64,000 nt of DNA, taken from NCBI RefSeq assembly GCF_004799685.1, contig NZ_CP031311.1, forward strand, positions 496,001 to 560,000, written 5' to 3'. Source of the DNA: Halobellus limi. GTDB taxonomy: Archaea > Halobacteriota > Halobacteria > Halobacteriales > Haloferacaceae. This document shows, one piece after another, positions 9,403 through 54,885 of this stretch (positions within the stretch are counted from its first letter, which is position 1; the number at the start of each line of letters is the position of its first letter). A model generated the notes under the pieces. The model was not told the origin of the DNA and searched no databases. It saw only the letters and a list, made by a program, of their open reading frames with translations. The position numbers and the translations under genes were made by a program.

Positions 9403-9499
9403 CCCACCTTTTGCGCTGCGGACCGGCTTTGCCGGTCCTCGTCTACGGCCAGCGAGACGGCTTTGCCGTCTCGCGCTGGCAAAAGCTGGATCAAAAGCA
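9403..9499 (+). repeat. 3'-end repeat element, copy a (after fba)
   Basis: Starts with the box CCCACCTTTTGCGC 45 bases after the fba stop and encloses two perfect hairpins with CTTTG loops. It ends with GCAAAAGCTGGATCAAAAGC. It belongs to the subtype with the tail box GCTGGAxCAAAAGC. The box pair CTTTTGC/GCAAAAG can close the whole element as a long stem. Probably a terminator or 3'-UTR structure; see findings. Confidence 0.65.
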
Positions 9500-9898: not shown

Positions 9899-9968
9899 GC
9901 TTTTTGGTCCAGCTTTTTGCAACGAGCGGTGCGCCGAAGGCGCACCCGAGTCAGCAAAAAGGTGGGTG
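9899..9968 (-). repeat. 3'-end repeat element, copy b (after prf1)
   Basis: Read on the minus strand it begins directly after the prf1 stop codon with CACCCACCTTTTTGC. It contains the hairpin GGTGCGC-CTTC-GGCGCACC-like stem and ends with GCAAAAAGCTGGACCAAAAA. Same subtype as copies a and f. The T5 run just after the stop suits archaeal termination. Confidence 0.7.
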
Positions 9969-11219
9969 TTAGACGCCGGTCGAGTACCGCAGGATGCCGG
10001 CGATGCCGCCGAAGGCGTCGTGGAGCTGCTCGCCCTTCTCGAAGTCGGTCGAGATGAACTTCGTCTCGGTGCCGCGCTGTTCGGCGATCGACATCAGGTG
10101 GTCGATCACGTCGTCGCGGTCGACCTTCTCTGCCTCCTCGCCGCACTCGCTACAGACGTGGTCGGGGTCGCTGTGACGGCTGTCGACCACTTCGTACTCC
10201 TCGTGACCGTTCGGACACTCGTAGATCACGACGTCCGAGCGCAGGTCCTCCGAGAGGAGGAGGCGGTCGACCGAACCCATCATCAGGTTCTTGCGAGTCG
10301 GACCGAACCCGTAGGTCGCCTCCTCGCCGGTGTGGAGGTTCTCGAAGAACTCCTCCATCTCGGCTTTGTCCTTCATCACCTCCTGGTCGGCGAGGACGTC
10401 CTGGGCGGCGTCGACGAGGTCGTGGAGGCCGGACTCGTCGGTGTAGGAGACGTCGAACTTCCCGACGACGAGGTCCTGTAGCTCGTGGTGGAGGTAGTCG
10501 CCGTCGAGGAACTCGTCTTTCGTCGGCGAGGGGCCGCCGACGAGGATGCCGTCCATCTCGTGGCGCTTCGGGACGAAGAGGTCGTCGGCCATCCCGGCGA
10601 TCTCCTGATAGAAGTTGTCGATCGCCTCCAACCGTAGGCGGGCGAACCGCTGGGCCGACTGGCCACCCTTTCGCTGCTTGCCGGGGACGAGCGACGAGGC
10701 AGACTTCACCGGCTCGACGCGCTTGCCCTTCAGCCAGCCGACGTTCGCCTCCCGGCGGTCGAGGACGATCAGGCCGAAGAGGCCCTTGTCGGTCAGCATG
10801 TCCTCCAGCGGCTGGGTGAGGAAGTTCGAATCGCAGTGGTAGCGGAACGACTGGACCGGCTCCGGCGGGCTCTCTAAGGTCCGCGTGACCATATCGGTCT
10901 GGCCGCCGCCGGCGTCGACCGCGCCCGAGAAGATGACGATGCCGTTGTCCGGGGGGTAGGTGTCGTAGTAGCGGAGCCGGTCCTTGATCGACGTCAGCGC
11001 GTCCTGGACGTTCGTCCGGGTCTGCTTGGACTTGATGTTGGACGCCTCCGAGTGCTCCTGGGTGACGTGGGCCACGACGTCGGAGATCTGCTTGTCCGGG
11101 GGGATGTAGATGGTGACGAGCTGCGTGCCGGAACCCTCGTACTCTTTGAGTTCCTCGATGACCTTCCGGAACTCGTACTTCCGGCGGTCGTCGCTCATCT
11201 CTTCGGCGTCGGTACTCAT
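9969..11219 (-). CDS. prf1: Peptide chain release factor aRF1
   Basis: A 416-residue class I release factor that recognises all three stop codons and triggers peptide release. Domain 1 carries the NIKS motif (residues 61-64), domain 2 the GGQ motif (185-187), and the C-terminal part a zinc-ribbon-like CPNGHEEY...CSEC module. Length matches archaeal aRF1. The ATG at 11219 gives an eight-residue leader before a second possible Met8; either could be used. It is divergent from the MinD-like gene. Confidence 0.96.
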   Translation of the reverse strand: MSTDAEEMSDDRRKYEFRKVIEELKEYEGSGTQLVTIYIPPDKQISDVVAHVTQEHSEASNIKSKQTRTNVQDALTSIKDRLRYYDTYPPDNGIVIFSGAVDAGGGQTDMVTRTLESPPEPVQSFRYHCDSNFLTQPLEDMLTDKGLFGLIVLDRREANVGWLKGKRVEPVKSASSLVPGKQRKGGQSAQRFARLRLEAIDNFYQEIAGMADDLFVPKRHEMDGILVGGPSPTKDEFLDGDYLHHELQDLVVGKFDVSYTDESGLHDLVDAAQDVLADQEVMKDKAEMEEFFENLHTGEEATYGFGPTRKNLMMGSVDRLLLSEDLRSDVVIYECPNGHEEYEVVDSRHSDPDHVCSECGEEAEKVDRDDVIDHLMSIAEQRGTETKFISTDFEKGEQLHDAFGGIAGILRYSTGV

Positions 11220-17630: not shown

Positions 17631-17715
17631 ACACCCACCTTTTTCCACGATGGGTTTCCTCGCGGCGCTTCGCGCCGCTGCGGGAACCCATCGCGCAAAA
17701 ACCTGGAGGGAAAAA
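17631..17715 (+). repeat. 3'-end repeat element, copy c (after ilvE)
   Basis: Begins at the base after the ilvE stop with ACACCCACCTTTTTCC. A nested hairpin (GATGGGTTTCC...GGGAACCCATC around GCGGCG-CTTCG-CGCCGC) follows, then GCGCAAAAACCTGGAGGGAA. It is of the subtype with CCTGGAGGGAAAAA as tail box. Likely 3'-UTR or terminator. Confidence 0.7.
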
Positions 17716-18047: not shown

Positions 18048-18114
18048 CTTTTTCCCTCCAGGTTTTTGCGCGATGGGTTCGCGAAGCGAACCCGAGGCGC
18101 AAAAAGGTGGATGT
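18048..18114 (-). repeat. 3'-end repeat element, copy d (after the DUF502 gene)
   Basis: On the minus strand it starts directly after the stop codon with CATCCACCTTTTTGCGCCTC. It continues through the hairpin GGGTTCG-CTT-CGCGAACCC and ends GCGCAAAAACCTGGAGGG plus an A-run. The arms TTTTTGCGC and GCGCAAAAA pair perfectly, closing the element. Same subtype as copies c and e. Confidence 0.7.
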
Positions 18115-19370: not shown

Positions 19371-19433
19371 TCCACCTTTTTCCACGGCGGGGTCCGCAGG
19401 ACCCCGCCGCGCAAAAACCTGGAGGGAAAAAGA
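19371..19433 (+). repeat. 3'-end repeat element, copy e (after carS)
   Basis: Starts immediately after the carS stop with TCCACCTTTTTCC. It has the hairpin GGCGGGGTCC-GCA-GGACCCCGCC and then GCGCAAAAACCTGGAGGGAA with an A-run. The convergent partner on the other side is the AT-rich metallophosphoesterase gene, which has no such element of its own. Confidence 0.7.
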
Positions 19434-31565: not shown

Positions 31566-31630
31566 CGCTTTGCCGACGCGGGACTCACTCGTCGCTTCGC
31601 TCCTCGTTCGTGTTCGCGTCGGCAAAAAGC
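31566..31630 (-). terminator. Inverted-repeat terminator after the tRNA-Asp array
   Basis: Directly after the last tRNA-Asp (minus strand) comes CTTTTTGCCGACGCG, matched about 50 bases on by CGCGTCGGCAAAGCG. The T5 run next to the RNA 3' end, closed by TTTTTGCC/GGCAAA arms, parallels the 3'-end repeat elements found after protein genes. Confidence 0.6.
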
Positions 31631-31702
31631 GCCCGAGGCGGGATTTGAACCCGCGTCACGACCGTGACAGGGTCGTATGATGGGCCACTACACCACCCGG
31701 GC
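31630..31702 (-). tRNA. tRNA-Asp (GTC), copy 3 in transcription order
   Basis: A 73-nt cloverleaf on the minus strand: acceptor GCCCGGG/CTCGGGC with a G-U pair, anticodon arm CGACC-CTGTCAC-GGTCG giving anticodon GTC, T-arm GCGGGTTCAAATCCCGC, discriminator G as expected for Asp. CCA is not encoded. Confidence 0.95.
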
Positions 31703-31724
31703 ACACATCGGAGCAAAACCAAAG

Positions 31725-31797
31725 CGCCCGAGGCGGGATTTGAACCCGCGTCACGACCGTGACAGGGTCGTATGATGGGCCACTACACCACCCGGGC
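31725..31797 (-). tRNA. tRNA-Asp (GTC), copy 2
   Basis: Identical in sequence to the neighbouring copies, offset by exactly 95 bases. The 22-base spacers are also identical, which points to recent tandem duplication. Confidence 0.95.
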
Positions 31798-31819
31798 ACA
31801 CATCGGAGCAAAACCAAAG

Positions 31820-31892
31820 CGCCCGAGGCGGGATTTGAACCCGCGTCACGACCGTGACAGGGTCGTATGATGGGCCACTACACCACCCGGGC
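31820..31892 (-). tRNA. tRNA-Asp (GTC), copy 1 (promoter-proximal)
   Basis: Same 73-nt sequence as the other two copies. The likely promoter (TAAGTCTTAATTAGA, 31920-31934 on the minus strand) lies 28-42 bases upstream of its 5' end. All three could be made from one transcript. Confidence 0.95.
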
Positions 31893-31919
31893 TTGCTCCA
31901 CTTCCTCGTAACCCGGTAG

Positions 31920-48931: not shown

Positions 48932-49011
48932 ACGAGGAGCGTATCGCCGTGGCGTTATTAAAGTCGCGCCATTCCCCGTGGCGGCGTGCCGCCGTACTGC
49001 GGCGGCCGTAA

Positions 49012-49086
49012 TTTCGCCTGCCCGGTACAGACGTGATTTCGCCCGCCCGGTACAGACGTGATTTCGCCCGCCCAGTACAGACGTGA
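49012..49086 (+). repeat. 25-bp tandem repeat, three units, in a divergent promoter region
   Basis: Units start at 49012, 49037 and 49062 and read TTTCGCCYGCCCRGTACAGA plus CGTGA. Only two positions vary. The array lies 81 bases from the start of the secreted-protein gene and 123 bases from the membrane HTH gene, so it could hold tandem regulator sites. Confidence 0.85.
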
Positions 49087-49208
49087 GTCCGGCGGGTCGA
49101 ACCGGGCGGGATTCCGCCGAGCCGAACCGGCAGAAACGGGCGGGATCCGCTGGACCGAGACCGCACCGATGGAAAGCGTTTTGAGCGTTCCACCTACACT
49201 CTCATCAA

Positions 49209-52879: not shown

Positions 52880-53875
52880 ATGATCTCGAAGGGCTGTGAG
52901 CAGTGCGCGAAAGGCGGAAAGATGGTGCTCTTCGTCTACGGCTACTGCGACCAGCGCGACTGCTTTTACTGCCCGCTCGGCGAGAACCGAAAGAACGTCA
53001 CCGACGTCTACGCCAACGAGCGCCTCGTCGAGTCCGACGACGACGTCCTCGAGGAGGCCCACCGGATGGACGCCCTCGGCACCTCGATCACCGGCGGCGA
53101 ACCCCAGGAGGCCATGGAGCGGACCTGTCACTACCTCTCGCTTTTGAAAGACGAGTTCGGCGAGGACCACCACACGCACCTCTACACCGGGATCACCGGC
53201 GGCCGGGAGAACATGCGCCGGCTCTCCGAAGCGGGCCTCGACGAGATTCGCTTTCACCCGCCGTACGAACTGTGGGGCGACCTCCACGGCACCGAGTGGG
53301 AGGAGATCCTCCACGTCGCCCGTGAGGAGGGGCTCACGCCGGCGTTCGAGATTCCGGGCATCCGCGCCGAAGAGGAGTTCTTGGAGTTCCTCGACGAGGG
53401 CGCCGCCGAGTTCTGCAATATAAACGAGTTCGAGATGAGCGACGGCAACTACCGCCGGATGCAGGAGCAGGGCTACGAACTCCAGGAGGGCCACATGTCA
53501 GCCGTCGACGGGTCGAAAGAGGAGATCCTCGATGCGATGGGCGACCACGAGCGCGTGTACTTCTGTACCTCCGTGTTCAAAGACGCCGCCCAGCACCGCA
53601 ACCGACTGAAGCGGATGGCGCGGACGATCCGGCGTCCCTTCGACGAGGTGACCGACGACGGCACGCTCGTCTACGGCAAGACGTGGGTCGGCTCGGACAC
53701 GCTCGACGCGCTCGGCGTCCCCGAGGAGTTCTACTCGGTGAAATCCGAGCACGTCGAGGTCGCGTGGTGGCTCCTAGAGGAAATGATCGAGGAGGGCGAC
53801 GTCTCCGAGGGCGAGATCGTCGAGCAGTACCCGACCGCCGACGGGACCGTGGTCGAGCGGACGCCGCTGGCCTGA
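52880..53875 (+). CDS. Radical SAM protein with Cx4Cx2C cluster motif
   Basis: A 331-residue radical SAM enzyme with the GGEP motif (TSITGGEP) and a TIM-barrel layout. The cluster cysteines are Cys23, Cys28 and Cys31 (CDQRDCFYC), spaced Cx4Cx2C rather than the canonical Cx3Cx2C. Two further cysteines (Cys6, Cys9) open the protein. Relatives in archaea are annotated only as radical SAM or pyruvate-formate-lyase-activase-like; the reaction is unknown. Its last 33 bases are duplicated 104 bases downstream (53980-54013). Confidence 0.85.
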   Translation: MISKGCEQCAKGGKMVLFVYGYCDQRDCFYCPLGENRKNVTDVYANERLVESDDDVLEEAHRMDALGTSITGGEPQEAMERTCHYLSLLKDEFGEDHHTHLYTGITGGRENMRRLSEAGLDEIRFHPPYELWGDLHGTEWEEILHVAREEGLTPAFEIPGIRAEEEFLEFLDEGAAEFCNINEFEMSDGNYRRMQEQGYELQEGHMSAVDGSKEEILDAMGDHERVYFCTSVFKDAAQHRNRLKRMARTIRRPFDEVTDDGTLVYGKTWVGSDTLDALGVPEEFYSVKSEHVEVAWWLLEEMIEEGDVSEGEIVEQYPTADGTVVERTPLA

Positions 53876-53876
53876 T
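53843..53876 (+). repeat. 34-bp direct repeat, copy 1 (end of the radical SAM gene)
   Basis: Covers the last 11 codons (including the stop) and one more base. Matches 53980-54013 at 33 of 34 positions. Confidence 0.9.
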
Positions 53877-53921
53877 GACGCGAGCACGCGAAGCGTTCGA
53901 GCGGCCGAGCCGTTAGGCGAG

Positions 53922-53977
53922 GCTTTTGGTCCAGCTTTTCCCGAGCGAGCGGAGCGAGCGCAGCGGAAAAGGTGGGA
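53922..53977 (-). repeat. 3'-end repeat element, copy f
   Basis: On the minus strand it reads TCCCACCTTTTCCGC, then a Ser/Glu-codon-like GCTCGCTCC hairpin region, and GGGAAAAGCTGGACCAAAAG. It has the same subtype tail as copies a and b. It lies 39 bases after the minus-strand gene at 54017, inside the segment bracketed by the 34-bp duplication. Confidence 0.65.
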
Positions 53978-53979
53978 CT

Positions 53980-54013
53980 GGGACCGTGGTCGAGCGGACG
54001 CCGCTGGCGTGAT
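53980..54013 (+). repeat. 34-bp direct repeat, copy 2 (relic of the radical SAM gene end)
   Basis: One substitution (GGCCTGAT to GGCGTGAT) compared with copy 1. It serves no coding role here. It brackets a 103-base segment that contains element copy f. Confidence 0.9.
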
Positions 54014-54016
54014 TCT

Positions 54017-54703
54017 CTATCGGATCCCGCCGGCCCGTTCCAGCGTCAGCGCCGCGTAGAGGCTCGGAACGAGGGCGACGGCCGTCCCCACGAGGAGCCA
54101 CTCGCCGAGCGGCCCGCCCGTGAGGACGCCGATCGCGACGACCCCGACCCCGAGCAGGCCGCCGGCGGCCGCTCCGCGCCGTTTCGTCCGCGGACCGAAG
54201 TCGACGCCGCGAGCGGTGCCGTACAGCGCGCTTCCGAGCGCTGCAATGGCCCCCGCGGCGACGCCGACGAGCGGTTGCGCGACGAACAGCCCGAACACGA
54301 CGAGCGCGAGGCCGACGGCGCCCCCGGTCGACACCGTCGCTCGCGGCGGGAGCGGGTTGACGTCCGCACCGTATCGGACCGCGTAGCTCGCGGGCGGCGC
54401 GCCGAGGACGAGGCCGACCAGGGCGCTTCGGAGCAGTCCCCCCGGCGAAGGATCGTCGAGGAGAACGCCGAACGCGCCCGCGAGGGCGATGACGACGCCG
54501 GCGGCCAGGAGCCAGCGCGGGCGGATCGTCGCCGCGGGGTCGTCGTCGCGGACGATGCCGAAGCCGACGAACGGGTAGGAGACGAGCGCGCCGATCACCG
54601 CCGTCGCGTAGAGTCCCCAGCCGAGCGTGACGCCGGTCACGACGACCGAGAGGCCGAGGAAGACGCCCGTGACGACGGCGAACTCGGGGACGCGGCGACT
54701 CAT
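54017..54703 (-). CDS. Polytopic membrane protein of unknown function
   Basis: A 228-residue protein with about seven hydrophobic helices and short loops, rich in Gly, Ala and Val (VVTGVFLGLSVVVTGVTLGW, LLAAGVVIALAGAFGVLL). No motif recognised. Start at ATG 54703 (MSRRVPEFAV); the upstream extension is Arg-rich. Divergent from the TRAM gene. Confidence 0.75.
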   Translation of the reverse strand: MSRRVPEFAVVTGVFLGLSVVVTGVTLGWGLYATAVIGALVSYPFVGFGIVRDDDPAATIRPRWLLAAGVVIALAGAFGVLLDDPSPGGLLRSALVGLVLGAPPASYAVRYGADVNPLPPRATVSTGGAVGLALVVFGLFVAQPLVGVAAGAIAALGSALYGTARGVDFGPRTKRRGAAAGGLLGVGVVAIGVLTGGPLGEWLLVGTAVALVPSLYAALTLERAGGIR

Positions 54704-54885
54704 ACTCCCTATCGGGTCGAGACGGCGGAAAGCGTTGCGGTCGGCGCCGGACTCGTGGTGTCGACCGTCACCGCGGATCGCGCGCTCGCGTCGCCGCGCG
54801 TCCACGCGCTCGTGAACGCGCCGCCGCGTGCAGACCCGATAGTAGACCCGCAAGGGTTTAGACACGCGGTGGAGTAGTTCACGCT

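Follow-up and report, generated by a model that had tools for sequence, protein, structure and literature searches.

The duplicated end of the radical-SAM gene

In the window, the 64,000-nt stretch of Halobellus limi DNA analysed here, a gene of the radical-SAM family is followed by a non-coding element, referred to as E, and then by a second copy of the gene's own 3' end. The features of this locus are the following:

52880-53875 (+): radical-SAM family gene, 3' end duplicated; 331-aa open reading frame whose protein has a Pfam Radical_SAM match of E 1.9e-6, just under the curated cut-off
53843-53876 (+): gene-end copy g1, the last 33 coding bases including TGA, plus one base; sequence repeat
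53877-53922 (+): spacer f, from the stop codon to the element; GCGAGC-rich left part of the insert
53923-53975 (+): element E (copy f), made of T-run, GGTCCAG, hairpin and AAAAGGTGG; its ends are conserved in the family
53931-53933 and 53973-53975 (+): hairpin foot of E, CCA pairing with TGG
53976-53979 (+): junction GAC+T, three bases matching the native gene just upstream of g1, and one extra base
53980-54013 (+): gene-end copy g2, untranslated, then native downstream sequence; from the repeat and the empty-site comparison
54017-54865 (-): convergent open reading frame from the frame list, with its stop codon 4 bases past g2

The duplication of the gene end around this copy of E, reported in a first-pass annotation of the window, is real: 33 of 34 bases are identical between 53843-53876 and 53980-54013 (GGGACCGTGGTCGAGCGGACGCCGCTGGC(C/G)TGAT), and a pattern search with the last 33 coding bases gave only two matches in the window, both at this locus, and none in 100 dinucleotide shuffles of it. 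The gene ends in GGGACCGTGGTCGAGCGGACGCCGCTGGCCTGA, which recurs with one change at 53980-54012, and this sole coding difference between g1 and g2 (GCC/GCG) is synonymous. The copies are separated by 103 bases with no coding capacity and no integrase gene, within which E lies with its conserved ends CTTTTGGTCCAG...AAAAGGTGG. If one extra base is allowed, the repeat starts three bases earlier, GAC-T-GGGACC beside E corresponding to GACGGGACC in the gene. The first part of spacer f resembles the empty-site flank of relatives. Elsewhere in the window, three identical tRNA genes on the minus strand form a 95-bp tandem repeat (31626-31910) and a 25-bp unit, CGTGATTTCGCCCGCCCGGTACAGA, stands in tandem (48982-49106).

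The hairpin element and its occurrence behind genes

E is a dispersed hairpin element of 50-100 bp. The three pairs of its foot covary over 154 distinct copies (CCA/TGG in 138, GCA/TGC in 6, CGA/TCG in 3, GGG or GGA/TCC in 3), with a near-invariant G-G mismatch above the foot. Since the folding energy of the window copy is no better than that of shuffles (z -0.45), this covariation is the better support for a hairpin. Both the T-runs and the location of E would fit the place of a putative transcription terminator behind genes. With Rfam, only tRNA was detected in the window at gathering scores, and only tRNA and a ribosomal leader at six duplication-bearing loci, with no family for E in either search. 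Archaeal T-run and hairpin terminators resemble E in having T-runs just behind stop codons and hairpins near 3' ends; the main text of the 3'-end mapping in Haloferax volcanii (PMC7237163) holds no match to the GGTCC motif and, unlike what is observed for E, reports no gene-end duplication.

Variants of the element were also noticed. At L261 and L126 a second hairpin is inserted at the same point of the left foot of E (after GGTCC), and L021, L053 and L064 hold a subtype with the foot CGA/TCG followed by GATGTACGCCCGGAACACTAACGG, a sequence found again 80-180 bases upstream. Two further E copies of a longer type, without flanking duplication, lie in the window at 9478-9497 (-) and 9901-9920 (+); the right end of the latter abuts the stop codon of a convergent open reading frame, 9969-11219 (-), and relatives have differing E variants at the end of that gene. 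The variant motif TTTTCCCTCCAGGTTTTTGC, apparently of a related element family, occurs three times in the window (17695-17714 (-), 18050-18069 (+), 19411-19430 (-)).

A pattern requiring both ends of E was matched in 56 of the 170 genomes of the family, belonging to 16 of 28 genera, and the reversed pattern was matched nowhere in the 170. The genome of the window (G000) has 15 E sites at one mismatch or fewer and none of the reversed pattern. No match was found in 2.9 million viral contigs, on which count a virus-borne origin of E was rejected.

The first-pass annotation had suggested that similar flanking duplications might be seen at other copies of the element, and these were found: direct repeats flank 77 of the 105 E copies that were sampled across the family and, after sorting by upstream gene, about 65 of the 71 copies lying just behind a genuine sense gene carry the gene-end duplication. 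None of the copies adjoining a convergent gene has it, E not behind a sense gene is without flanking repeat, and a control on 117 non-focal gene ends gave 2 weak repeats. A chance tandem repeat of the gene end, unlinked to E, is already refuted by these figures and is extremely improbable: tandem gene ends without E do exist (L209 and L088:5208), but the association of E and duplication extends over more than ten gene families and many genera, against a control rate of 2/117. The tandem copy at L209, at the end of the radical-SAM gene of Halorubellus salinus, was possibly left after loss of the element.

The duplicated ends belong to more than ten gene families and one tRNA, namely radical SAM, ilvD, an Eco57I-type methylase, tRNA-Arg and at least ten more families recognised by the C-terminus alone; several families carry the duplication in more than one genus. 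Among radical-SAM orthologs (n=80), E and a second gene end were found in Halobellus, Salinigranum, Haloferax, Haloplanus, Halomarina, Halovivax, Halorussus, Natrinema and Natrarchaeobius. The second copy does not begin at the same place in all of them, its left edge lying about 17, 27, 30, 33 or 60 bases before the stop-codon end, and several independent events have therefore affected the same gene. Two other loci are of particular composition: at L083:658-960 (G000, C1) the 3' end of tRNA-Arg and about 80 bases of its flank are repeated after E with the same extra junction base, and at L080:2000-4200 (G010) an array of E and gene ends behind the Eco57I-type methylase gene has paralogous small open reading frames between its units.

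The right boundary falls exactly at the foot of E, 62 of 89 alignments to the gene starting at the next base, and one extra base stands exactly three bases past the foot at 37 of the 89 aligned junctions, at no fewer than ten unrelated gene ends. So exact a junction, in which the foot GGTGG is followed by three native bases and in many cases by one extra base, is suggestive of joining by a specific reaction. The coding length duplicated varies, from 18 to 71 bases before the stop-codon end (median 35). Tandem units of 81-136 bp are common among E arrays, and a truncated E comes after the last gene end in 12 of 71 arrays, compared with 7 of 2130 background windows.

The coincidence of the junction with the right hairpin foot, the truncated remnants and the frequent tandem units would also suit an origin in which a plain terminator hairpin came first, replication slippage or template switching at its foot duplicated the segment g-f-E, and the last E was truncated or lost. 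However, only about 6 of 71 copies have the form expected of a precursor of slippage, E behind a gene with no second gene end; several of these few keep a stub of the repeat (L151, L163, L113), and most arrays bear no trace of a last E. We hold this origin to be unlikely. Fold-back priming from the hairpin was rejected by reasoning, as it would give an inverted and not a direct repeat.

Filled, empty and mosaic alleles

The radical-SAM gene is present in all 17 genomes of the genus Halobellus, at 85-97% identity in the 16 further ones. Empty-site forms, which the first-pass annotation had proposed to look for, do exist in relatives: 13 of these 17 genomes have neither E nor a second gene end at the site (for one of them, L018, on the basis that its genome holds no match to the E pattern), and closely matched empty and filled pairs were found in Haloferax. 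The arrangement g-E-g is seen in G000, G006 and G008, and g-E-g-E-g with identical units in G004. The g copies of G006 are identical to each other (33/33) and differ at six positions from those of G000, and the gene-end copies of G008 match over 49 bases, past the stop codon. Within each filled species of Halobellus, the two gene ends are closer to each other than to those of the other species.

Between the gene end and its untranslated copy, 20 differences fall at codon position 1, 9 at position 2 and 68 at position 3. When each distinct difference was counted once (n=76), 55 were synonymous and 21 nonsynonymous, an excess of synonymous changes both against the 26% expected at random (p 4e-17) and against the approximately 41% expected if the first copy alone were constrained (p 3e-8), under a uniform mutation model; by our estimate, allowing for a transition bias would reduce this excess without abolishing it. 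It follows that the untranslated copy was a coding end until recently, which is what exchange predicts. A diversity-generating retroelement was also considered; in an informal look, no adenine-directed differences between the copies were noticed.

The comparison in Haloferax was made between empty and filled species pairs with genes 97-99% identical. In 7 of 9 filled alleles the 60 nt past the last g match the empty relative at 0.88-0.98, and the 60 nt past g1 match it at only 0.60-0.72 and other filled species at up to 1.00. In the AIEFSR gene, import accounts for the 3' part of g1 together with the spacer and E, and the 3' part of g2 and the downstream flank are native. G048 and G040 have their left crossover within g, and G042 has it just upstream, so that among the few recipients sampled there is no fixed crossover site, and in all three the spacer f after g1 is foreign to the recipient. 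Such mosaic alleles are the pattern that recombination through the duplicated gene end leaves. In G047 and G053, the flank past the last g of the AIEFSR gene is only 0.63-0.65 similar to the empty sites and the sequence behind the last copy is the cassette spacer itself; both look like donor lineages.

These comparisons establish that close species differ in having or lacking the unit, with native flank after the last g, that the imported segment extends from late g1 across E into early g2, with crossovers varying within or just upstream of g, and that tandem arrays (gE)n-g occur whose copies differ mainly at synonymous sites. The unit is composed of a gene end g, a spacer and T-run f, E and a second g, is specific to its gene and stands in sense orientation. 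As read from aligned alleles, a structured and widespread hairpin element is thereby shown to travel from one allele of a gene to another, accompanied by a copy of that gene's end. Recombination at the gene end, offered by the first-pass annotation as one of two explanations, is directly supported by the Haloferax mosaics and the synonymous differences as the route of E exchange between alleles. Of its wider suggestion that the elements move or are exchanged, the part on exchange between alleles of one gene is borne out; movement from gene to gene was not directly observed.

The other explanation, insertion with a long target duplication, is one possible account of how the duplication first arose. 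E would then be a non-autonomous transposable element residing at terminators, and widely staggered cuts would produce a target duplication of about 35-60 bp spanning gene end, spacer and T-run. E is indeed a dispersed family nearly always accompanied by the duplication when behind a sense gene, several arrays have a repeat of 35-49 bp reaching the E boundary with gap 0, and the native T-run of Haloferax massiliensis, a species that also carries g-E-g-E-g, is found at the right edge of the repeat, in agreement with the empty site of H. sulfurifontis. The repeat length is, however, not constant (18-71 coding bases), the differences between copies are mostly synonymous and not random, and the f after g1 is foreign in G042, G048 and G040. 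In addition, E not behind a sense gene is without the repeat, viral contigs are without E, several E carriers have no Y1 transposase and many g21 genomes have Y1 and no E. Transposition with such a duplication is in our judgement rather improbable.

The Y1 domain (PF01797) is absent from G000, G006, G007, G009 and G080, all of which bear E, and present in many E-free genomes; Y1 transposase was accordingly rejected as a required driver. This bears as well on a scheme in which g-f-E cassettes are cut out as circles by a site-specific recombinase or an HUH-type enzyme and then integrated at a matching gene end. The chimerism of g1 and g2 is what a single crossover of such a circle in g would give, and the recurrent junction of three native bases and one extra base at ten or more unrelated gene ends would agree with it. 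Yet the recipients do not share one left crossover, that of G042 being upstream of the unit, several E-bearing genomes are without Y1 transposases, and a screen for Y1 transposases found no E-linked candidate enzyme. Enzymatic excision and insertion of this kind seems to us quite unlikely.

A probable route of exchange and its relation to known systems

The explanation preferred here is that an allele lacking E would acquire the unit through ordinary homologous recombination or gene conversion, one homology arm being supplied by the gene body with g1 and the other by the spare end g2. Thanks to the duplicated end, E would move cleanly even between alleles with unmatched downstream flanks and would leave the C-terminus of the gene intact, and unequal exchange between g copies would lengthen or shorten the arrays. 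At a new gene, the first duplication would come from a specific joining in which the GGTGG foot is attached 18-71 bases (median 35) ahead of the stop-codon end, often leaving three native bases and one extra base. A homology of about 30 bp is little for RadA-type recombination, and the right arm being only of about that length counts against this explanation. So do the extra base recurring at a fixed position, which homologous recombination does not explain, the flank mismatch of G047 and G053, and the shuffle-level folding energy of the window copy. In its favour, efficient gene conversion has been published for Haloferax volcanii (PMC8223754, PMC11276520). The whole account, comprising exchange of alleles through the duplicated end, arrays by unequal exchange and a specific first joining, is considered probable, with some reserve.

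Several known systems share part of these properties. REP/BIME elements are mobilised by RAYT (Y1) transposases and, like E, are short, dispersed, palindromic, extragenic and often behind genes. The 15 sites in G000 and the foot covariation place E among short extragenic dispersed palindromes, but the hairpin of REPs is headed by GTAG and that of E has the conserved motif TTTTTGGTCCAG...AAAAAGGTGG, and neither G000 nor the four other E carriers named above encode a Y1 (RAYT/IS200-type) transposase. To our knowledge, REPs carry no duplicated host gene end. MITEs are likewise small, non-coding, dispersed and present or absent between strains, as E is with its empty sites in relatives. In E, however, no terminal inverted repeats of a known transposase were identified, and the target duplications of MITEs are usually 2-10 bp, in contrast to the inconstant 18-71 coding bases plus spacer that flank E.

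Some integrative elements use the 3' end of a gene or tRNA as attachment site and restore the gene. E similarly has a 3' end on both sides of the insert, carries the copy by which the gene remains intact, as with tyrosine recombinase-type elements, shows att-like chimerism and once lies at a tRNA-Arg 3' end. It differs in that the insert of about 50-100 bp holds no gene, one shared element is combined with a gene end varying by locus, and crossovers are not fixed. Integron attC cassettes also form arrays of units of sequence and hairpin that may be gained or lost, but what each of them carries is a gene, in place of which the E unit has a copy of the end of the gene beside it.

In the open-access literature, no description was found of a hairpin element bracketed by duplicated gene ends, and the fixed extra junction base points to a joining reaction for which no counterpart was found there. 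On the basis of sequence comparison, we suggest tentatively, and as a reading with more doubt than confidence attached, that these units may form a novel class of mobile DNA: gene-end cassettes, each specific to its gene and about 80-140 bp long. In such a cassette a dedicated reaction, leaving three native bases and one extra base after the hairpin foot, would link a conserved hairpin to a copy of the last codons of the host gene, and the cassette would enter matching genes harmlessly, bringing its own gene end and terminator.

If this is true, a non-coding hairpin with no identified enzyme would stay mobile across archaeal genera by using a spare gene end as homology arm. Strong recombination at gene ends would be predicted, the recurrent insertions at the same genes in unrelated genera would be explained, and the units would constitute a natural substrate for short-homology recombination that is testable in Haloferax.
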